A stretch of 64,000 bases of DNA, taken from assembly GCF_011074955.1 (NCBI RefSeq), contig NZ_WUQJ01000004.1, forward strand, positions 186,001 to 250,000, in the 5' to 3' direction. Positions 25,716 through 37,921 of this stretch are shown in pieces. Origin of the DNA: Marinobacter caseinilyticus (GTDB lineage: Bacteria > Pseudomonadota > Gammaproteobacteria > Pseudomonadales > Oleiphilaceae). Made by a program: the position numbers and the translations under genes. Position 1 is the stretch's first letter; every line of letters begins with the position of its first letter. The notes beneath the pieces are model-generated. The model ran no database searches, was not told the DNA's origin, and saw only the letters and a list, made by a program, of their open reading frames with translations.

Positions 25716-27266
25716 ATGTTCGAAACCATCTGGATCGTATTTGCGTTCATAATGGGGCTGGCAGTCAAAACGATCGGCTTACCCCCGCTCGTTGGTTATC
25801 TGGCGGCAGGCTTTGTCCTGAGTGGATTGAGCACTTACGCCAGCCTGCCGGTGGAGGATGGTCGGGCGCTGGAGCATTTGGCCCACTTAGGCGTGCTGCT
25901 GCTGCTGTTCACGGTCGGCCTGAAACTGAAAATACGGTCCGTTCTGAGGCCGGAGGTCATCGGCGGCAGCCTGCTGCACTTTGGCATCACCTGCGTGGTA
26001 TTCACTCCGGGGATTTACTGGCTGGCCGGACTGGACTGGCCAACCGCATTGCTGCTTGCTGTTGCACTGTCCTTCTCAAGCACCGTATTGGCCGCCAAGG
26101 TATTGGAAAGCAAACGCGAACTTCGCGCTTTCCACGGCCGGGTCGCGATTGGCATCCTGGTGATGCAGGACCTGATTGCCCTGGCGGTGATGAGCATCGC
26201 GTCCGGCAAGACCCCATCTGCATTTGCACTGTTAATCTTCGGCCTGCCCTTACTCAGACCTATGCTCTATCGTCTGCTCGATGCCAGTGGCCATGACGAG
26301 TTGCTGATACTGCTGGGATTGCTGCTGGCCTTGGCTCTGGGTGGTTATGGCTTCGAAGTGGTGGGGTTGAGTTCCGAGTTGGGCGCACTTCTGTTCGGTG
26401 CCATGCTGGCCGCGCACCCCCGCTCGACCGAGCTGTCCAAATCGCTCTGGAGCATCAAGGAAGTGTTTTTGGTCGGCTTCTTCCTGCAAATCGGCATGAG
26501 CGGTCTGCCCGACTCCGATGCGATGATGTTTGCCCTGGTGGCATCACTGGTGCTGCCGCTCAAAGGCATTCTGTTCTTTTTCTTACTGCTGATCTTCCGT
26601 CTGCGCGCCCGCAGCAGTTTCCTGACCAGCCTGTCGCTGACCAACTACAGCGAGTTCGGTCTCATTGTGGCAAGCGTTGCGCTGCAGGAATGGCTGGTGC
26701 CATTGGCCATTACCGTGGCGTTGTCCTTTGTGTTTTCGGCGCCGATCAACCGATTGTCCCATGTCCTATACGAACGCCTGTCGCGGCGGCTGATCCCACT
26801 GGAGAGTGATCGGCGCCATCCCGATGAGCAACCGGTGTCTCTGGACGGAACCCGAGTGCTTGTGGCCGGAATGGGGCGCACCGGCAGTGCCGCGTACGAT
26901 CAGATGCGGCTGTCCGAATCACAGGTGACCGGGCTTGATTCTGACCCGGCCAAAGTCGAAAAACACCTGAAGGAAGGGCGCCACGTGCTGTTCGCGGATG
27001 CAGAAGACACCGCGTTCTGGCAGGAGCTGCAAATACCCCGGTTGCAAGCGGTCATCCTGTCAATGGGTGACATCGAGGGCAAGATCATCGCTACCCGGAT
27101 GCTCCGGGAGAAAGGCTTCACCGGGTATATCGTTGCTCACACCATGTACAATGACGAAGCCGAAAAAATACGCGACGCCGGTGCCGATGAGGCTTACCTC
27201 TCAATGAACGAAACCGGGGTCGCGTTGGCCACCCACGTGACCGATATCACCGGCGCCGCCGTTTAG
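25716..27266 (+). CDS. Kef-type monovalent cation:proton antiporter with TrkA-N domain
   Basis: A predicted 516-residue CPA2 antiporter: about 10-12 membrane helices from residue 3 to about 365 (FETIWIVFAFIMGLAVK, GVLLLLFTVGLKLKI, SFSSTVLAAKVLE, GALLFGAMLAAHPRS), then a cytosolic TrkA-N (Rossmann) domain starting VLVAGMGRTGSAAYDQM. It is related to KefB/KefC and YbaL but lacks a visible TrkA-C domain. The ATG at 25716 has AAGGAG 13 bases upstream, slightly far. It converges with the methyltransferase gene at 27263, sharing 4 bases. Confidence 0.88.
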   Translation: MFETIWIVFAFIMGLAVKTIGLPPLVGYLAAGFVLSGLSTYASLPVEDGRALEHLAHLGVLLLLFTVGLKLKIRSVLRPEVIGGSLLHFGITCVVFTPGIYWLAGLDWPTALLLAVALSFSSTVLAAKVLESKRELRAFHGRVAIGILVMQDLIALAVMSIASGKTPSAFALLIFGLPLLRPMLYRLLDASGHDELLILLGLLLALALGGYGFEVVGLSSELGALLFGAMLAAHPRSTELSKSLWSIKEVFLVGFFLQIGMSGLPDSDAMMFALVASLVLPLKGILFFFLLLIFRLRARSSFLTSLSLTNYSEFGLIVASVALQEWLVPLAITVALSFVFSAPINRLSHVLYERLSRRLIPLESDRRHPDEQPVSLDGTRVLVAGMGRTGSAAYDQMRLSESQVTGLDSDPAKVEKHLKEGRHVLFADAEDTAFWQELQIPRLQAVILSMGDIEGKIIATRMLREKGFTGYIVAHTMYNDEAEKIRDAGADEAYLSMNETGVALATHVTDITGAAV

Positions 27267-28006
27267 GCCGTTCGGCGCCAGGCGGTCAGCTCTGCCACCG
27301 TATGCTGATATTTGCGTTTGGTTTCCCGAATAACGAAGGGCAGGTCCTCGGGCTCCCGCAACAACTCAAAATGCGGGGCCAGCACTTCTTTCAAGCCATC
27401 CAGCACGGTGAAGGGCACTCCGTTGCGCAAATACCCACCGAGCCACTGCGACCTCGGAGTGAACTCGTCCATCAGGGTGTAAGGCGTGCTCAGCACCAGC
27501 ACCCCGTCATCCGCCAGGTGTCGGTGCACCGACGCCAGAAAGGCCCGGGGATCGCGCAGTCGATCAATCAGGTTACCGGCAAAAATCAGATTGAATCCGC
27601 TGTATTCCGAGCCCAGATTACAGGCGTCCGCTACTGCAAACGTCACCCGGGCAGCGGCTTTTTCAAGGTTCGAGTCCGCCAGTGAGGCTGTTACCGTTGC
27701 GCCCAACTCACCCTCATCGCGCAGAAAATACGCCAGCTCACCATCGGTTTTCAACGTATTGGCAGCCTCAATAAACCGGTTCGAAAGGTCCAGCCCCACC
27801 ACCCGCTCGAAGACCCGCCCCAGCTCCAGAGTGCTGCGGCCAACCGCGCAACCGAGATCCAGTGCCGACTGTTTGTCCCGGCCTGCCATCAATTCCTGGC
27901 ACACACCGGCACAGCGGGACGGGTAGTTGCCGACGCCAAAATAACTCTCACCATAATGGAAGGCCATGTACTGACCCAGTAGTTCATCGGATTCATAGTG
28001 ACTCAT
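27263..28006 (-). CDS. Putative 4-mercaptohistidine N1-methyltransferase (OvoA C-terminal-like)
   Basis: A 247-residue SAM methyltransferase starting SHYESDELLGQYMAFHYGE, with motif I (ALDLGCAVGRSTLELG) and the characteristic TPYTLMDEFTPRSQWLGGY and VIRETKRKYQHTVAELTAWRR near the C-terminus. These match the methyltransferase that forms the C-terminal half of OvoA (ovothiol synthesis) or occurs as a separate protein. It follows the sulfoxide-synthase gene by 12 bases on the same strand. Together they look like a split OvoA-type pathway. The product (ovothiol or a relative) is not proven. Confidence 0.78.
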   Translation of the reverse strand: MSHYESDELLGQYMAFHYGESYFGVGNYPSRCAGVCQELMAGRDKQSALDLGCAVGRSTLELGRVFERVVGLDLSNRFIEAANTLKTDGELAYFLRDEGELGATVTASLADSNLEKAAARVTFAVADACNLGSEYSGFNLIFAGNLIDRLRDPRAFLASVHRHLADDGVLVLSTPYTLMDEFTPRSQWLGGYLRNGVPFTVLDGLKEVLAPHFELLREPEDLPFVIRETKRKYQHTVAELTAWRRTA

Positions 28007-28018
28007 GGCGGTTAGCCC

Positions 28019-29353
28019 TCACAGTGCACAGGTTCGAAAACCGGTATAGGCATCGTTTCGTTGTGGCAGGTAGGCCTGACGATAGCTGCCTCGGATTAGC
28101 ATGGATGACGTGGCGCACCCGCCGCCCTTGGCGACTTTATGATCGCCAAATTGCAGTGTCGACATGTATGGGTACATGTCCACTGAAAAACCGTCATAAG
28201 GCAGAAACTGGCTGCAGGTCCACTCCCAGGCGGTACCCAGCATCTGGCGGCAACCGAATGGACTGTCGCCGGCGGGCAGGGCCGACACCGGCAGCTGCGC
28301 CATGAGGCCAGCGTCCATATCGACCCGCTGAGCATCCGGCCCATCGCCCCAGGGAAATCGCCGGAACGGCTCACCTGGTCGGTTGCCCAGCGCAGCCGCT
28401 TCCCATTCATACTCGCTTGGGAGTCGACGACCGGCCCAGGCACAATAGGCTTCCGCCTCCCAGTAGCTGACGTGCGTGACTGGAAACTCAGTCTGCAGGG
28501 GTCGCCATTGATCGAACAGTTTTTCCTGCCACTGACCGTCTTGCAAACGCCAGTACAAGGGGTGCTCTGCCTGTCGTGGCAGTGGTTGTCGCTGCCCTTC
28601 CACCAGCGCAACGTCCTGTTCCGTCGCCAGCCATTTACGCCCTCCGAATGACCAGAACTCAGGACGTTGATAACCCCCCGCTTCAACAAACGCCAGAAAC
28701 TGCCCGTTGGACACCAGGGTGCGTGCGATCTCAAACGGCGCCAGTGCCACGGTGAATCGTGGTTTCTCGTTATCGAAGGCAAAATCGTCGGTGGCGAAAG
28801 CCGGCGACTGCGCCGGCATGCCGATCACATACTCGCCGCCAGGAATCCGGGCATCGCCCTCGGGCAATTCGGCCGGCACTGGCGTCGCCGTATGGGTGCC
28901 CGGTGGCGCTGGGTAGCCGACGGTCTGGCGGCACCAGGTCATTGATTCGATGTGCATATTCTGATGCATAATGGCATAGCGATACAGGTAGCTGTCAGCG
29001 TCGGTCAATGGCGTCGAGATCAGTCGCTGCTCAATCCGATCAAAGATGGCATTGGCGTAATGCCGGGTATCGGCTTTGCCGGGAAACAGCCCCGGCTGCC
29101 ATCGGTCTTTGTGGTCGATGTGAAAGGAGTCCCATAGCTCATCCATTGCTGGATCAAAACTGGGCACGCCATCCAGTTTGGCCAGAATAAAGACCTCATA
29201 GAAGAACGCCGCATGCCCGAGTTCCCACAGCGGCGGGTTTACACCCGGATGATAGGGCACCAGCAATTGATCATCGGACAAGCTGTCGACCAGCGCCAGT
29301 GATCGCGCCCGAGTTGTATTCAGGGCGTCCAGCAACAACTCTTGTTCGTGCAT
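28019..29353 (-). CDS. Non-heme iron sulfoxide synthase, EgtB/OvoA/SenA family
   Basis: A 444-residue protein with an N-terminal DinB-like helical domain supplying the iron ligands (H47 in PLWELGHAAFF; H130 and H134 in the HxxxHxE motif HQNMHIE) and a C-terminal formylglycine-generating-enzyme-like domain (VTHVSYWEAEAYCAWAGRRLPSE, GTAWEWTCSQF, RGSYRQAYLPQRNDAYTGFRTC). The family joins a thiol or selenol donor to a histidine imidazole. N-terminal details look closer to EgtB/SenA than to classical OvoA, yet the partner is an OvoA-type methyltransferase. Substrates are therefore uncertain. Confidence 0.82.
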   Translation of the reverse strand: MHEQELLLDALNTTRARSLALVDSLSDDQLLVPYHPGVNPPLWELGHAAFFYEVFILAKLDGVPSFDPAMDELWDSFHIDHKDRWQPGLFPGKADTRHYANAIFDRIEQRLISTPLTDADSYLYRYAIMHQNMHIESMTWCRQTVGYPAPPGTHTATPVPAELPEGDARIPGGEYVIGMPAQSPAFATDDFAFDNEKPRFTVALAPFEIARTLVSNGQFLAFVEAGGYQRPEFWSFGGRKWLATEQDVALVEGQRQPLPRQAEHPLYWRLQDGQWQEKLFDQWRPLQTEFPVTHVSYWEAEAYCAWAGRRLPSEYEWEAAALGNRPGEPFRRFPWGDGPDAQRVDMDAGLMAQLPVSALPAGDSPFGCRQMLGTAWEWTCSQFLPYDGFSVDMYPYMSTLQFGDHKVAKGGGCATSSMLIRGSYRQAYLPQRNDAYTGFRTCAL

Positions 29354-32538: not shown

Positions 32539-32554
32539 TGGCATGTAAAATGCT
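32539..32554 (+). promoter_or_regulatory. Possible sigma-54 promoter upstream of the VpsR-like gene
   Basis: TGGCATG at 32539-32545 and ATGCT at 32550-32554 place the GG and GC dinucleotides exactly 10 bases apart, as in -24/-12 promoters. Two of the usual consensus positions differ. It lies about 150 bases upstream of the start at 32701. A chance match cannot be excluded. Confidence 0.3.
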
Positions 32555-32700: not shown

Positions 32701-34106
32701 ATGCTGGCAAAAAGACCGCTGCTTTGGCTGTCCCCCAGCCCCGGCCGGACGCTTTCGGACCTGCCCCGGCTGCCCGGCTGGGAAATCAGTTCGTTTGATC
32801 TGCTTGGTCCGCCTCCCGCTGTTTTACCGACTCTTCCTGACATTCGGGTTGGTCTGCTCGACCTGCGCCAATACCAAACCAGTCGCTCGGCGCACCTTGA
32901 GAAGTGGATCGAAAGCCTTGCACCGGCTACCTGGGCGGCTTTGCTCAGCCAACCACCAGCAGAAGACGCCCAACTCCAATCGGTGATCGCTTCCCATTGC
33001 GCGGATTACCACACCTGGCCCTGCGACTCTGAACGGCTGGCGGCGGTACTCGGCCATTTTTGGGGCATGGCCGATCTCAAGGCCCACATCAACGACTCGG
33101 CGGAGGAGAGTTTTCAAAAATACTCGCTGTCGGGGCGCTCATCGGCTATTCGTAACACCCGGGCGCGGTTACAGCGTTTTGCCCAGACCCTGGAACCGGT
33201 GCTTATTTTTGGTGAAAGCGGCACCGGCAGAACCGCCGCCGCCCACTTCATCCATCGTCGCTCGCCCGTTCGCCAGGGGCCACTGGTGACGGTCAACTGC
33301 GCCACGTTGCCGACGTCTTTGACTCAAAGTGAATTGTTCGGCTATGAAAAAGGCGCATTTACCCACGCCTTTTCATCCCGTCCCGGCCGCATTGAAGCCG
33401 CACACGGGGGCACATTGCTGCTGCTGGGTATCGATGAGTTGACGCTGGAGCAGCAGTCCATTTTGCTGCGGTTTTTGCAGGAAGGTCAGGTTGAACGGAT
33501 CGGCAGTCAGCAGGTTCGCACCGTCAATGCCCGCATCATTGCAACCAGTTCCACATCGCTGCAGAGCCTGATCGAGGCCGGTCGTTTTCGGGCTGACGTC
33601 TTTTATCGCCTGGGCGGGCTGGATATTCGACTGCCGGCACTCCGGGAACGTCTTGACGATGTGCCCATGCTCACCGAATTCATCACCCGATTGCATTCGG
33701 ACACCGCCCCCAAGCCACCCGGAAACTCAGTAAGGCGGCGCTGCGCTGTCTCTGCAGGTACCAATGGCCCGGCAACCTCCATGAACTTCGAAACTGCCTG
33801 CGTCAGGCCATGCTGCTCAGCGACCACCCGATTCTGCACCCGGAAGACCTGAGCGTCACCACCTATCCGGCAACGGTTACCACCCCGACGAAAGTGACTC
33901 TGGCGGAGTACCGGGCGCGTGCCGAACAAGAAGCGGTGGCACACTGCCTGGCGTTGACCCGTCATAACGTCTCAGCGGCCGCAAGATTGCTGGATATCTC
34001 ACGCGTGTCGCTCTACCGCATGATGAAACGGCAGGAAACGAAACCGGCCTGCAGGCCGACCACAAAACCTCTCATTTACTCATCGCAGCAAGGAGAATCC
34101 ACATGA
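32701..34106 (+). pseudogene. VpsR-like AAA+/Fis-type regulator, interrupted by one frameshift
   Basis: The reading frame from ATG 32701 (perfect AGGAGGT 7 bases upstream) encodes an N-terminal VpsR-like receiver domain lacking phosphorylation residues, then an AAA+ domain (Walker A GESGTGRT with Lys replaced by Arg; GAFTHA in place of GAFTGA). At about 33715-33725 (Lys-Pro-Pro codons) the frame breaks. One extra base there would restore RKLSKAALRCLCRYQWPGNLHELRN and the C-terminal Fis-type helix-turn-helix (NVSAAARLLDISRVSLYRM), which ends at 34106. The intact product would be about 468 residues. VpsR is a c-di-GMP-responsive biofilm regulator. A sequencing error is as likely as a true mutation. 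Confidence 0.75.
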
Positions 34107-35149
34107 CTCAGTGGCAACGATGTTCTGTTGTGGTCGTCGTGGGGCTCGCCTCCACCGTCGTCATGGCAGCGCCCGAAGACAGCGATTCCAACGAAAGCCA
34201 GCGAGCGGAAAAGGCCAGCGAAATAGCCTCTATCACCACGGATCGGGGCATCGTCACCGAACCGGGCAGGTTCATCATCGAGCCGTCTTTTTCCCACGCC
34301 CACAGCAACTCCACACTGGTGGCCATAGAAGGTTACACCGTAATACCCGCCCTGCTGGTCGGATTGATCAACATTTCTGAGGTTCAACGAGACATCTTCG
34401 TGGGCGCCCTGTCGCTCAAGTACGGTTTTACCAGCCGGTTCGAAGCCAGTGTCCGCATCCCCTACCTGTCCGTTCATGAGGACCTGCGCGAGCGACAGGC
34501 GTTTCAGGGCACGCCAGTGGACACTTTGAGAGAGTCTTCCGGCGAAGGGCTGGGCGACATTGAAGCCTCCATCCGGTATCAATTCAACGATGGCCTGGAT
34601 GGCTGGCCCTATACCATTGGCAACTTCCGGGTCAAAGCACCCACCGGCGAAGGGCCTTTTGATGTGGAGCAGCGCACGCTTGAGGACAGCCAGGGCAACC
34701 CGATTGGCGTTGCGTTCGCGGAACGGCCCACTGGGTCCGGATTCTGGTCCTTCGAACCCGGACTTTCCTTTATTTTTCCCTCCGATCCCGCCGTTTTGTT
34801 CGGCAATATCAGTTATGTATGGACATTAAAACAGGACGAAGGCTTTGCCAACGGCGGCACCGTCAATCCCGGCAACATCGTGCGGTTTGGCTTTGGCATG
34901 GGGTTCGCGTTCAATGAAAAAACGTCGTTCAGCCTTGGCTACGATCACGCTGTGATTCAGAAAACCGATCGCGAGTTTGACCAGAATTTTCTGGATACCA
35001 GCTTTGAGCGCATTCAAGTCGGCTCACTCGCATTCGGGCTCTCGCAACGATTGACCCCAGACACGAGCTTGAGTCTGACGGTTAGCATTGGTGTCACAGA
35101 ACAGGCACCCAACAGCGAAATCACGGTCCGGCTGCCTATCGCTTTTTAA
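34103..35149 (+). CDS. fapF: FapF-like outer-membrane beta-barrel secretion pore
   Basis: A 348-residue exported protein (signal VVVVGLASTVVMAA) with a short charged N-terminal stretch (EDSDSNESQRAEKASEIA) and a beta-barrel ending in Phe (VRLPIAF). Segments such as VAIEGYTVIPALLVGLINISEVQRD, SGEGLGDIEASIRYQ, FIFPSDPAVLFGNISYVW and FSLGYDHAVIQKT match what I recall of FapF, the trimeric pore that exports Fap amyloid subunits in Pseudomonas. It is shorter than FapF (about 430 residues) because the N-terminal coiled-coil region is reduced. The ATG overlaps the regulator's stop (ATGA), with AAGGAG 8 bases upstream. Confidence 0.82.
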   Translation: MTQWQRCSVVVVVGLASTVVMAAPEDSDSNESQRAEKASEIASITTDRGIVTEPGRFIIEPSFSHAHSNSTLVAIEGYTVIPALLVGLINISEVQRDIFVGALSLKYGFTSRFEASVRIPYLSVHEDLRERQAFQGTPVDTLRESSGEGLGDIEASIRYQFNDGLDGWPYTIGNFRVKAPTGEGPFDVEQRTLEDSQGNPIGVAFAERPTGSGFWSFEPGLSFIFPSDPAVLFGNISYVWTLKQDEGFANGGTVNPGNIVRFGFGMGFAFNEKTSFSLGYDHAVIQKTDREFDQNFLDTSFERIQVGSLAFGLSQRLTPDTSLSLTVSIGVTEQAPNSEITVRLPIAF

Positions 35150-35202
35150 ATGGCACACCTGACGCTCCGCTCTTCGTAATCGCCGCCATCGCGGAATCCG
35201 CT

Positions 35203-35742
35203 TCAGCGACCGGGCGATTGCAGGAAAGGATCACCGAACGTTTCGGGCATCCGCTGGAAGGTGCCAACATTGTTCAATTCGATATTGAGCGCACGGATAT
35301 TCTGAATAACCGCGCCATCAAGATTGTTCTGTATTTGGGTCAGCCAGCCGGAGTTGAGGGTCCTATTGGTTGCAACGAGGGTGCTTTGTTCATGTTGCGA
35401 GCCAGGCACCACAACGAATGTTTCAAGATTGTGTTTAATCTGCGCTTGCGAGGGCGACAGCGCCTGATTCAGATTTGGAATCATCAAGCGGTTCACGACC
35501 AGCGTTTCACCATTGACCGAAACAACCTGCTCCAGGCCGATGGAGATTTCCAGGTTATCCAGCAGAAATCCTCCGCGCTGGGTATCCAGCACCGCATCGT
35601 CCAGTGCCGGAGTGGGCAGTGGCAGCTCGGCGTGCGCCGGCGGCAATAAAACCATGCCCGCAATCACCGTGAGCAACAGCGCGGGCGAAATGCGCGGTAG
35701 CCTGCTGGCGCTTATTGATGTGCATTGACTGTCCATTGTCAT
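35203..35742 (-). CDS. FapE-like exported protein
   Basis: A predicted 179-residue protein with a signal peptide ending AHA (about residue 38), then a domain beginning LDTQRGGFLLDNLEISIGLEQVVSVNGE. The ATG overlaps the stop of the C39 peptidase gene (TGATG), which fixes the start. Position directly after a FapD-like peptidase and the QRGGF-type segment suggest FapE, a minor fibre-associated component of the Fap system. The match is by context and recollection of the family rather than a defining motif. Confidence 0.6.
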   Translation of the reverse strand: MTMDSQCTSISASRLPRISPALLLTVIAGMVLLPPAHAELPLPTPALDDAVLDTQRGGFLLDNLEISIGLEQVVSVNGETLVVNRLMIPNLNQALSPSQAQIKHNLETFVVVPGSQHEQSTLVATNRTLNSGWLTQIQNNLDGAVIQNIRALNIELNNVGTFQRMPETFGDPFLQSPGR

Positions 35743-36440
35743 CACCAATCGATACTTGAAGACCATTGAGGGAGTATGTACCCCAACGACTGTCCGTTGG
35801 GGTCGCCACCATGATACACCGGGGCTCTGGCAACCTGCTGCCAGTCTTCACGCCGATTAAAGGCGCCGCGGCCCTGAGTTAATTGGTTGCGAATGGCAAA
35901 GGCAATGCCATCCCACTGGCGTGCGAAGGCATCCCGGGAATACACCTTGAGACCACGCGCCGGATCGCCGACCAAAACGTCCTGATCGCTGATGCCTTTG
36001 ACCACCACAAAGTGGCGGAAACCATCCACATTCATCAATACGATCAGCGGCAATCCAACCTGTTGCCGAAGCCCCGACAACGACAGCCTGAAACCATCGG
36101 CCCGATACCCCTGACCAGCAAGATAACGCTTCATGTCGAGCATGGAGAAGCCTTCCTGGCGAACCTTGTCCTTGTCGGCGTTCGCCAGCATGGATTCAAA
36201 TACGGCGTGTTCCGTGACCTGCTGCCCATAGTGGAATGACAGCAGCGACGCCAGCGCCGCAGATCCACAGCTGTAGTCGTATTCTTGCCGCATGATGGTT
36301 GAGAAACGCTGTTCCTGGAAACTGACCACGTCCATTGTGATCTGTCCGCCAATGCCGGGGACCTGAACCGAGCCCCCATAGGCGCAGGGCCATGGCAGGC
36401 AAAACAGCAAACTCATTGCGACCACTGTTTTCCCGTCCAC
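35742..36440 (-). CDS. fapD: FapD-like C39-family cysteine peptidase
   Basis: A 232-residue exported peptidase with a signal peptide (VVAMSLLFCLPWPCAYG) and a C39 fold: catalytic Cys58 in QEYDYSCGSAALASLL, His143 in GFRHFVVVKG, and Asp159 in LVGDPARGLK. FapD is the C39 peptidase of the Pseudomonas Fap amyloid operon. Unlike bacteriocin exporters it has no ABC domains. It starts at GTG, with AAGGAGG placed over the stop of the upstream gene, and is translationally coupled to the FapE-like gene. Confidence 0.85.
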   Translation of the reverse strand: MDGKTVVAMSLLFCLPWPCAYGGSVQVPGIGGQITMDVVSFQEQRFSTIMRQEYDYSCGSAALASLLSFHYGQQVTEHAVFESMLANADKDKVRQEGFSMLDMKRYLAGQGYRADGFRLSLSGLRQQVGLPLIVLMNVDGFRHFVVVKGISDQDVLVGDPARGLKVYSRDAFARQWDGIAFAIRNQLTQGRGAFNRREDWQQVARAPVYHGGDPNGQSLGYILPQWSSSIDW

Positions 36441-36451
36441 GGCCCCCTCCT

Positions 36452-36802
36452 TCAGCGGTTGATTAACACGTTAATCTGGGTACTTTCCTGGATCACAACC
36501 TGGTTGCCTGTATTCTGAATAACCGTGGCTACGCCGTTCATGTGTTCAAACGCATTGCCCGCAATCGTGTTGTCTCCGGTAACGACCTGGCCGGACAGAC
36601 TGTTGTTTGACAGCGTTGCATTCTGCTCGGTGTCATTCACCTGCCACTGCACCGGCAACCCCTGTCGCCCACTGGCCTCGGCCAACTGATGTTGCGACAC
36701 CGGTACAATATCCAACAACTCCTCGGCAACCAGCCAATCCACCGGCACGATCATCAGTGCGATCAGGATGAAACTGCGTTTCAATCCGCCAGCTTTGCCC
36801 AT
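36452..36802 (-). CDS. Small exported Fap-cluster protein with amyloid-like motif
   Basis: A predicted 116-residue protein starting MGKAGGLKRSFILIALMIV, with a signal-like helix ending near VAEE. The C-terminal part has an Asn/Gln/Gly-rich stretch (GNAFEHMNGVATVIQNTGNQ, then VVIQESTQINVLIN) that resembles the G-x-x-x-I-x-Q-x-x-G-N core of Fap and curlin subunits. GGGAGGA lies upstream of the chosen ATG. It may correspond to FapA or FapB, and I cannot decide between them. It lies between the repeat protein and the FapD-like peptidase. Confidence 0.65.
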   Translation of the reverse strand: MGKAGGLKRSFILIALMIVPVDWLVAEELLDIVPVSQHQLAEASGRQGLPVQWQVNDTEQNATLSNNSLSGQVVTGDNTIAGNAFEHMNGVATVIQNTGNQVVIQESTQINVLINR

Positions 36803-36858
36803 GACGGTTCCTCCCGAACCGGTGGCCGCACCCATTACCGGGTGCGGCCAAACAGCGC

Positions 36859-37488
36859 TTAGTTACCGGTCGTCAGATTGGACATCACGCTGACGTTGGC
36901 CTGGGTCACACTGGCATTACCCGCATTCTGGGCAATGGCGCCCACCCCGGTGAAGTTCGCTGAACCACCGGAAAACTCGTTGCGATGGGTAACCTCGGTA
37001 TAGGAACCGCCTCCAATGGCATCGCCATAAGTGGTGGTAATACCAGACACGGAGCCCTCAAGATCGGCATTGTTGAGGAATACACTCACATTCAGGTCCA
37101 ACATGCTGGTGCTGCTGTCGGAATTATCTGAATTGTCGTTGCCACTGTCTTTAATCTTGAAGGAGTCGCTAACATCAGTGCTGTTATCCGAATTGTCATT
37201 GCCGCTGTCTTTAATCTTGAAGGAGTCGCTGACGTCAGTGCTGTTATCCGAATTGTCATTGCCGCTGTCTGCAATCTTGAACGAGTCGGCAACATCGGTG
37301 CTGTTATCCGCATTGTTGGAATTGTCATTGCCGGAGTGGGTATTTCCGGAATGATCGTTATTCGCGGTTGAGAAGTCGTCGGCGTTGGTGTTTGGGTCAC
37401 CATCACCGCCCTGGTCTGCTACGGCATATCCAGACAACCCAAGACTCAAAGCAATAGCCATCGCTAGCAAGTTTTTTTGAGTTTTCAT
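36859..37488 (-). CDS. Secreted tandem-repeat protein, candidate amyloid subunit
   Basis: A predicted 209-residue protein with a signal peptide cleaved after AVA (about residue 24). An Asp/Asn/Ser-rich region follows with three near-identical 20-residue repeats (core STDVSDSFKIKDSGNDNSDN, about residues 55-115). The C-terminal part carries VGAIAQNAGNASVTQANV, an I-x-Q-N-x-G-N-x-x-V-x-Q-x-N motif like those of Fap/curlin fibre subunits. It differs from classical FapC, whose repeats are about 37 residues and Gln/Ala-rich. The ATG at 37488 has AGGGA 9 bases upstream. It is first in an operon with the FapD- and FapE-like genes. Confidence 0.75.
   Translation of the reverse strand: MKTQKNLLAMAIALSLGLSGYAVADQGGDGDPNTNADDFSTANNDHSGNTHSGNDNSNNADNSTDVADSFKIADSGNDNSDNSTDVSDSFKIKDSGNDNSDNSTDVSDSFKIKDSGNDNSDNSDSSTSMLDLNVSVFLNNADLEGSVSGITTTYGDAIGGGSYTEVTHRNEFSGGSANFTGVGAIAQNAGNASVTQANVSVMSNLTTGN
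37141..37320 (-). repeat. Three 60-bp in-frame tandem repeats
   Basis: Units 37141-37200, 37201-37260 and 37261-37320 are aligned copies. The first two differ at only a few bases, the third is more divergent and its last bases drift. Each encodes 20 residues of the form DSGNDNSDNSTDVSDSFKIK. The near identity at the DNA level suggests recent expansion. Confidence 0.9.
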
Positions 37489-37921
37489 CGTCATCATTCC
37501 CTTTGGCATAGTTTTGTTTTCCCTCGACGTCTCCCCGGTTTCCGTACAGACCAGTCGCTCACCAGGGCCGCCTGACTGAACCATTGCGATTTCCATGCCA
37601 AAACAACAATAAAAATGCAGGCAATTGATATTCATAAACTATTCAATAAAGCCGTGGTTAAGCTCCCGGGCATCCGCGCCTGGGTGTTTCAGGCCTGCAA
37701 CACCTGTTGCCGATGCACCGGCAGTGCAAACAAATAATTATTTTTATTCAATGAGATAGAAGTCATCAAAGCGTCAGTAATTTTAACGCTGGTGAAGTGT
37801 CATACCTGCTGACAGCAGTTTGCGACGGCGTGCCCGGCCCGGCACGCCTGGTCTGGGATGCCTGCCGGTCGTTTCCACTTTCTGCTAGTCTCTGACTTTT
37901 CTTACCGGAAATTCCGTCATC
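37489..37921. promoter_or_regulatory. Divergent regulatory region between the amyloid-like operon and the ABC exporter
   Basis: This 433-bp gap holds no supported gene. It must contain the promoter of the leftward repeat-protein operon and of the rightward ABC gene. Two inverted repeats are visible: CTGCTG-A-CAGCAG at 37806-37818, and 8-base arms GGCGTGCC/GGCACGCC at 37827-37848 around a 6-base centre. Both are nearer the ABC gene. AT-rich DNA lies at about 37735-37760. Whether a VpsR-type protein binds here is unknown. Confidence 0.5.

Follow-up and report, generated by a model that had tools for sequence, protein, structure and literature searches.

A 64,000-nucleotide stretch of the genome of Marinobacter caseinilyticus (hereafter the window) was analyzed around a group of genes at positions 32701–37488, which an original prediction had described as a rearranged functional-amyloid locus of the Fap type known from Pseudomonas, with its own VpsR-like regulator. 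The forward strand carries the genes of a regulator, here called REG, and of a FapF-like outer-membrane barrel, facing a reverse-strand operon that encodes, in order, a secreted protein (REP), a small exported protein (SMALL), a FapD-like peptidase and a FapE-like protein. The N-terminal and AAA+ part of REG (32701–33852) matches the Pfam VpsR domain (expectation value, E, 2.1e-9) and sigma54-activator domain (Sigma54_activat, E 3.1e-53) and ends in a shifted frame; its C-terminal Fis-type helix-turn-helix (HTH) part (33810–34106; HTH_8, E 2.8e-9) lies in a different frame. The barrel gene (34103–35149) encodes a protein ending in Phe, and its ATG overlaps the stop of the last REG frame in an ATGA at 34103–34106. 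On the reverse strand, REP (36859–37488) consists of a signal peptide, a variable tract rich in Asp, Asn and Ser and a C-terminal segment conserved in the REP alignment; SMALL (36452–36835) is an Asn/Gln-rich protein with one FapB-type repeat, seen with a FapB profile at family level, and a leader-like motif, ...LAEASGRQG; the C39 peptidase gene (35742–36440) has a GTG start and encodes a signal-peptide-like N-terminus; and the FapE-like gene (35203–35766) encodes an exported protein of the RGG type, with the Arg-Gly-Gly codons, a predicted FapD cut site located from aligned columns, at 35569–35577. Upstream of the operon are a sigma54-type −24/−12 promoter, TGGCATGGAAATCGCA, at 37585–37600 on the reverse strand, and, at 37685–37702, a palindrome, TGTTKCA-N4-TGAAACA, predicted to bind REG as an upstream activating site. 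A REP start at 37635 was rejected because the conserved promoter is downstream of it; that at 37488 is credible. The layout first described, with the pore gene split off and facing the other four, its start overlapping the regulator stop, and a small Asn/Gln-rich and a secreted protein present, was borne out. We consider it probable that the locus encodes a divergent Fap-type system with a dedicated VpsR-type regulator, predicted to secrete surface fibres.

Further loci of this type were sampled with the window's peptidase as query. Of 95 confirmed loci 80 were kept, making 81 records with the window, and because the peptidase was the query all co-occurrence counts are conditional on it; locus L001, a duplicate of the window, was left out, as was L002 from the gene-set counts. 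The barrel gene was present in 79 records, the FapE-like gene in 80, SMALL in 79, REP in 71 and REG in 62. The gene set is kept as a unit beyond what chance would give, all five structural genes occurring in 69 of the 81 records, in 57 of these together with REG, and 66 records preserve the order REP–SMALL–peptidase–FapE-like on one strand. In all 31 Marinobacter-type records (the window and its 30 relatives, L003–L032) the pore gene lies downstream on the opposite strand. The start–stop overlap between REG and barrel is possible in 21 of the 30 relatives and in 22 of 61 records with both genes, the additional one being L039 (L054, which has classical fap genes, was left out of this tally). 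Loci of the divergent type were found in Marinobacter, Cellvibrionaceae, Halomonas, Vibrionaceae, Lysobacter, Thauera, Azoarcus, Nitrosomonas, Cupriavidus, Alphaproteobacteria and one Myxococcota bin. Not every genome of the genus has the locus: a barrel match at E<1e-40 was obtained in 13 of 24 Marinobacter genomes besides that of the window. One genus genome (G014; L143, 5773–13850) carries a tandem duplication of REP, SMALL, peptidase and FapE-like genes, in which both copies have a palindrome and a promoter of their own and the REP linkers differ.

By its sequence and its predicted model, the window barrel is a FapF homologue, as originally proposed. It matched the NCBIfam FapF profile at E 1.2e-42 (positions 103–420 of 420), a FapF hidden Markov model (HMM) built from reference loci at E 3.1e-51, and the solved FapF chains of the PDB at E 3.4e-32 by sequence. 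Profile–profile comparison of the barrel family with FapF gave 100% and E 5.5e-59, and the best fold match of the predicted model was FapF 5o67 (E 4.7e-20, TM-score 0.71). Profile positions 1–102 were left unmatched by the window barrel, and residues 1–49 of its model are mostly of low confidence, with two short helices. The references comprised nine Fap loci, six with a FapF over the NCBIfam cut-off, taken by inference as Pseudomonas, and three others of the order; three classical FapF proteins outside Pseudomonas-type genomes are also short (L110–L112).

The peptidase of the window is, on its sequence, FapD-like with an intact active site, again in agreement with what had been claimed. It matched the NCBIfam FapD profile (E 1.2e-47) and the FapD HMM from reference loci (E 2.5e-52), the family compared with FapD at 100% and E 1.6e-55 in profile–profile searches, and the Gln, Cys, His and Asp residues were invariant in 82 of 82 aligned rows, which included the window and a second pair, L002. 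Other peptidase–barrel pairs occur in the genus. The window's own genome holds a second C39 peptidase with a FapF-like barrel (G000:C10:285381–287265; L117, 7241–9293), adjoined, as judged by eye, by an OmpP1/FadL-like gene and a lipoprotein-like gene; weak barrel matches of the same sort (E about 1e-17 to 1e-22) were seen in 22 of 25 genus genomes. A third peptidase–barrel system (L114, 4431–9542; G003:C422) has a barrel matching FapF from profile position 10, i.e. with the N-terminal part included, and three exported partners that by eye share leader-like starts of the type LD[DS]xxLxxITA[GS].

Double-glycine leaders, as cut by the C39 domains of ATP-binding cassette (ABC) exporters, have Leu at P7, Glu at P8 and Gly-Gly before the cut. 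In the alignment of FapE-like proteins, the Arg-Gly-Gly motif is nearly invariant (R in 79, G in 79 and G in 81 of 81 rows, one row, that of L042, being its SMALL open reading frame, ORF) and is preceded by Leu at P7 in 72 rows, Glu at P8 in 50 and Asp at P10 in 56. SMALL carries a looser form of the leader (Leu in 74 and Gly in 73 of 79 rows). The near-invariant leader, newly seen here, points to FapE-like proteins as the substrate of FapD. Unlike the ABC-exporter domains, the window peptidase is exported as a protein of its own, and it would meet its Sec-exported substrates in the periplasm. At family level the RGG protein can be called FapE-like, the profile–profile comparison with FapE giving 94.6% and E 6.8e-8 over 41 columns. 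In the work of Rouse and colleagues (PMC5557850; this and the other papers are cited here from excerpts), the active-site Cys of FapD was required for FapC secretion; the excerpt reports that no N-terminal FapE peptides were seen, notes Gly-Gly motifs in FapE, and suspects FapE to be processed while leaving the target of FapD open. Among the literature matches listed, no later paper named the substrate of FapD. The leader on FapE-like proteins makes this question directly testable.

For SMALL, the evidence supports one divergent FapB-type repeat at the level of the family. Profile–profile comparison with the last FapB repeat gave 40.8% and E 2.8e-4, and at E≤1 the FapB HMM retrieved 29 SMALL proteins and one REP, and no other protein among 12,258 ORFs searched (L054 and L001 were left out of the FapB and FapC tallies). 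Composition as the source of this match was not supported, as reversed ORFs gave no match and shuffled ORFs four, none of them a SMALL. REP was also considered as a FapC homologue, which is not claimed: the profile–profile value was 4.1%, from the N-terminus only, compared with 97.5% for the positive control of FapB against FapC. Two members of the REP family reached E 1.5e-4 with the FapB HMM and 0.0042 with the FapC HMM. A C-terminal Gln/Asn motif links REP, SMALL and the FapE-like protein pairwise through SMALL (SMALL–REP, E 5.2e-8; SMALL–FapE-like, E 3e-11), the direct comparison of REP with the FapE-like protein giving 0.2%. The proposed match to FapA–F profiles held for FapF and FapD with the window proteins, was supported for FapE and FapB with their families, and was not significant for REP with FapC. 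Neither outcome that had been named in advance as refuting the original prediction, a barrel or peptidase with no FapF or FapD match or a gene set absent as a unit from all relatives, was observed.

The VpsR-like character of REG, claimed from the start, was upheld (37.6 bits, with a Pfam VpsR cut-off of 23.7), and REG was the sole VpsR-domain match in its genome at E≤0.01; what did not hold is that it forms one open frame in the assembly. The break lies near 33700–33800, between the frames 32701–33852 and 33810–34106, whereas each of the 30 Marinobacter-type relatives has REG as one open frame. The HTH part past the break aligned at 41–47% identity with the C-termini of the three relatives tested, which points to a break that either arose recently or stems from the assembly; the assembly does not tell a real mutation from an assembly or sequencing indel. 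An enhancer-binding protein resembling REG near the genes is moreover not peculiar to the divergent loci, since REG-like enhancer-binding proteins were also found beside classical fap genes in L112 (946–1935; 329 amino acids, shorter) and, in Aeromonas caviae, L123 (625–1926). In a regulator tree that is unsettled, with many open forks, a branch supported at 97/85 separates these two, along with REG, from nine further enhancer-binding proteins that the genome encodes. By eye, a LuxR/CsgD-like regulator gene was noted 3′ of the classical fap operon in L111 (8273–8965).

The ATPase motifs of these regulators were counted in aligned columns, with the fragments L068 and L077 left out. Aligned to further enhancer-binding proteins that the genome encodes, all 31 Marinobacter-type regulators lack both the Asp and the Glu of Walker B, and their glycine position of GAFTGA is His in 17, Ser in 10, Asn in 3 and Gly in 1; GAFTGA Phe-Thr and both arginine fingers are kept in all 31, and the Walker A Lys is replaced by Arg in four (the window, L012, L013 and L025). 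The window protein reads GAFTHA, lacks the Walker B pair and carries Arg in Walker A; its AAA+ domain does not have the intact Walker B and GAFTGA of a sigma54 enhancer-binding protein. The 29 regulators from outside Marinobacter have the Walker B Asp in 29 cases, the Glu in 28 and the GAFTGA glycine in 24. According to excerpts of the reviews PMC7057263 and PMC7175178, open complexes cannot form without the ATPase activity of bacterial enhancer-binding proteins, whose GAFTGA loop touches sigma54 as well as the −12/−11 DNA.

A −24/−12 promoter scoring at least 9 of 11 was found upstream of REP in 54 of 59 loci with REG, compared with 4 of 13 without it. The single Marinobacter-type miss of 31 was L026, on whose contig no REP gene was found and which was left out of the promoter, palindrome and −12 tables. 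Control scans upstream of the peptidase, FapE-like and barrel genes, mostly in coding DNA, gave 3 of 81, 7 of 81 and 4 of 79, and shuffles averaged about 6. The case for the promoter rests on its conserved place, as a single site is unremarkable in the window, where 49 sites with up to one mismatch occur and 35.6 are expected. Upstream of REG, sites with a score of at least 9 occur in 21 of 62 loci and 12 of 31 Marinobacter-type ones, and that of the window (32539–32554, forward strand) is a weak candidate for a second sigma54-type site.

Of the 30 Marinobacter-type loci, 28 have the palindrome TGTTTCA-N4-TGAAACA, allowing up to 2 mismatches, 93–99 base pairs (bp) from the promoter; of the 28 other loci with the promoter, 10 have it at 84–210 bp. 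Within the window such a palindrome is not unusual by itself, 14 of 100 shuffles having as many matches at up to 2 mismatches. Across the 4.3-Mb genome, the relaxed pattern occurs once, at 37685–37702 of the window, and its reversed control not at all. In 25 genus genomes there are 10 exact palindromes, nine of them within 6 kb of a divergent-type barrel gene; one-mismatch palindromes are mostly background (3 of 19 at a divergent-type locus or its remnant). The tenth exact site, at L141 6567 (G002:C1:154566), has no match to any of the six gene profiles nearby and is either an orphan site or due to chance. Since the palindrome is found once in the genome and REG is the only VpsR-domain match there, REG most likely has one main target, the fibre operon, to which it would bind at this site. 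Palindrome and promoter together, likewise new here, make the regulation of a Fap-type system testable when combined with the regulator.

The state of the regulator was then compared with the −12 element in 56 loci: 30 Marinobacter-type, 25 with an intact Walker B, and L074. At promoter position −14, the 30 Marinobacter-type loci have C (27) or G (3), and the 28 others with a promoter have T. Absence of the Walker B pair goes with a −12 element T[C/G]GC in 30 of 30 loci with a promoter. Where Walker B is intact and the GAFTGA glycine present, the element is [TA]TGC (18) or CTGC (1), three loci having no promoter at a score of at least 9; in three loci with an intact Walker B and Asn at the glycine position, all from Cellvibrionaceae, it is CTGC. 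Altogether 22 of the 25 loci with an intact Walker B have the promoter, the exceptions being L052, L056 and L075. In L074 (Vibrionaceae), GAFTGA and the Walker B Glu are gone in the alignment, and no such promoter was found. As few lineages are involved, this co-variation, also seen here for the first time, amounts to few independent events. Counts were also made to see whether the genus favours TTGC or TCGC at −12; both occur, the reversed-pattern control was high, and the counts decide nothing. One TTGC site, TGGCAC[CT]GTAATTGC[AT], recurs in 20 of 25 genus genomes.

As a tentative suggestion, more doubtful than likely, the fibre operon of the Marinobacter clade may be run by an enhancer-binding protein unable to hydrolyse ATP, with either a tuned −12 element or a partner ATPase that joins it in a mixed ring making sigma54 activation possible. 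Three possibilities present themselves: an unusual sigma54 switch in Marinobacter, a different ATPase that supplies the activity, or some other use of the promoter. The Marinobacter regulator would be a natural experiment showing what an activator must provide to sigma54. RpoN is reported to regulate the fap operon of P. fluorescens positively (PMC8202526, excerpt).

Combined, these data suggest how the system might operate. Sec would export REP, which is long, predicted to be disordered and ends in a short conserved motif, SMALL with its single FapB-type repeat, and the FapE-like protein. Once there, in the periplasm, the FapE-like protein would be cut by the C39 peptidase behind a leader of the double-glycine type, perhaps together with SMALL, and the products would leave through the FapF-type barrel to assemble into extracellular fibres, possibly amyloid. 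One VpsR-type enhancer-binding protein, encoded with the pore, would switch the operon on by binding the single palindrome about 97 bp 5′ of the sigma54-type promoter. Several observations weigh against this reading. The window barrel scores 146 bits and the peptidase 162 bits, below the curated equivalog cut-offs of NCBIfam for FapF (700) and FapD (330), and the pore has no counterpart of the long coiled coil in the periplasm on which FapF of Pseudomonas depends. As single proteins, the window's FapE-like protein reached only E 0.19 with a small FapE HMM and SMALL only E 0.043 with a small FapB HMM, most SMALL matches to FapB falling between E 0.01 and 1; the links to FapE and FapB therefore rest on the families, and the exported FapE with a QRGGF-type motif announced originally is supported at family level and by its RGG. 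The window REP has no FapC HMM match at E≤1, and the FapC HMM itself shows composition bias, SMALL accounting for 9 of its 30 top reversed matches. Structure prediction, proposed as a check for pore and repeat protein, gave a fold match for the pore; the AlphaFold model of REP is disordered (mean confidence, pLDDT, 45.6) and was kept out of the fold comparison. A search for FapA yielded nothing credible, the best FapA HMM match among window ORFs (E 0.018) being an off-frame ORF inside the peptidase gene. REG is broken and sits on a long branch (1.11, compared with 0.42 in L008, in a tree with unsettled bootstrap). Finally, the loci were picked through the peptidase and the family HMMs built from the same loci, and REG may in some cases be missing because a short contig ends before it.

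That the locus is simply a classical Fap operon with rearranged gene order, as first proposed, now appears improbable. Separation of fapF (4 of 16 genera) and loss of fapA (6 of 16) are described variants in the excerpt of Dueholm and colleagues (PMC3792158), and the trees are not firm on the nearest group, the forks joining groups to the divergent type being weak (81/44 and 84/48). Yet in maximum-likelihood trees, from which most Marinobacter rows were thinned, barrel and peptidase both branch apart from classical Fap: the barrels of the divergent type at 97/93 and the classical ones at 100/99, and the peptidases at 94/92 (the fork from which this branch was read; it is not starred) and 97/98. 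Profile scores also set both proteins apart from their classical counterparts. Moreover, in Halomonas faecis (L054, 7495–16421) a divergent-type locus adjoins classical fapB-fapC-fapD, an arrangement of both types side by side that speaks against a mere rearrangement of the Pseudomonas fapABCDEF operon. Judged from its sequences, the locus is therefore a separate subfamily; its description as sister of Fap rests, given the weak joining forks, more on the shared FapE-like and FapB-type proteins than on the trees. Two of the three reference loci not of Pseudomonas type group with Halomonas in the peptidase tree. That the barrel serves as a COG4313-type uptake channel unrelated to secretion has a very slim chance of being correct: such a channel, 4rl8, is indeed the next fold match of the model (E 7.5e-10, TM-score 0.57), but FapF is far better in both values, and the barrel gene lies near a C39 peptidase gene in 79 of the 81 records, which were picked by that peptidase.

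Two further explanations accept the relationship to Fap and dispute the product or its use. The peptidase, FapE-like protein and barrel could export a non-amyloid surface adhesin or matrix protein; REP would then be an acidic linker protein rich in Asp, Asn and Ser, which SMALL and the FapE-like protein hold, and no cross-beta fibre would form. This is unlikely but deserves serious attention, as conservation in REP is limited to a short C-terminal segment beside a long polar tract that varies, its model is disordered, its similarity to FapC is not significant, and the FapD/FapF-type pair of L114 carries different partner proteins within the genus. It is countered by the FapB-type repeat of the SMALL family, by the C-terminal motif that REP shares with SMALL, and by the long variable linkers that FapC has too (PMC3792158, excerpt). 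Alternatively, the locus may be decaying in this strain, with REG killed by the frameshift and the system silent. To the frameshift, the Walker A substitution shared with L012, L013 and L025 and the long REG branch can be added the decayed copies in two other genus genomes, G006 (L121) and G016 (L142), where REG is still open; but the five structural genes of the window are open, its promoter and palindrome are in place, and the HTH part past the frameshift still aligns well with relatives, which makes decay rather unlikely. The divergent Fap-type system predicted to secrete fibres is thus retained as the probable reading.

Compared with the Pseudomonas system (fapABCDEF), the window locus shares homologous FapD and FapF, the FapE-like family, a FapB-type repeat in the SMALL family, the order of fapD and fapE and the signal peptides. 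It differs in its separate branch, in having no credible FapA, a REP without significant similarity to FapC and a single repeat in SMALL, and in a pore that has no long coiled coil and whose gene is convergent and overlaps its own regulator. Like the window, the classical loci L110–L112 and L123 have no FapA match, with a short FapF in L110–L112 and a REG-like protein near L112 and L123; unlike it, they have a clear FapB and FapC. L110 (1237–8924) has two fapD and two fapE genes. The Fil system of Acinetobacter (FilB peptidase and FilC barrel, in NCBIfam names) likewise joins a C39 peptidase to a FapF-like barrel, and its profiles matched the window proteins more weakly than those of FapD and FapF. 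V. cholerae VpsR, tied to biofilm in excerpts of PMC3162934 and PMC5552954, shares with REG the VpsR domain and the state of a degenerate enhancer-binding protein; it acts, according to the excerpt of PMC5552954, without RpoN, and it has no GAFTGA, whereas the window type keeps a −24/−12 promoter and the Phe-Thr of GAFTGA.

FapD and FapF belong to larger families (PMC3792158, excerpt), and, in an excerpt, a review reports homologues of fapD and fapF lying together in five more phyla and a fap operon encoding no regulator (PMC6173800). Among the matches listed from the open-licence literature for FapF in Marinobacter, for FapC in Marinobacter, Thauera or Vibrio, and for either in Nitrosomonas, Cupriavidus or Lysobacter, no title or abstract beginning concerned the present type. 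If our reading is right, secretion of the Fap kind extends beyond what the Pseudomonas model covers, and its parts stand out more clearly in a second branch. Elsewhere in the window, at 27263–29353, an EgtB-like gene lies beside a methyltransferase gene, a pair that may resemble a split ovothiol synthase.

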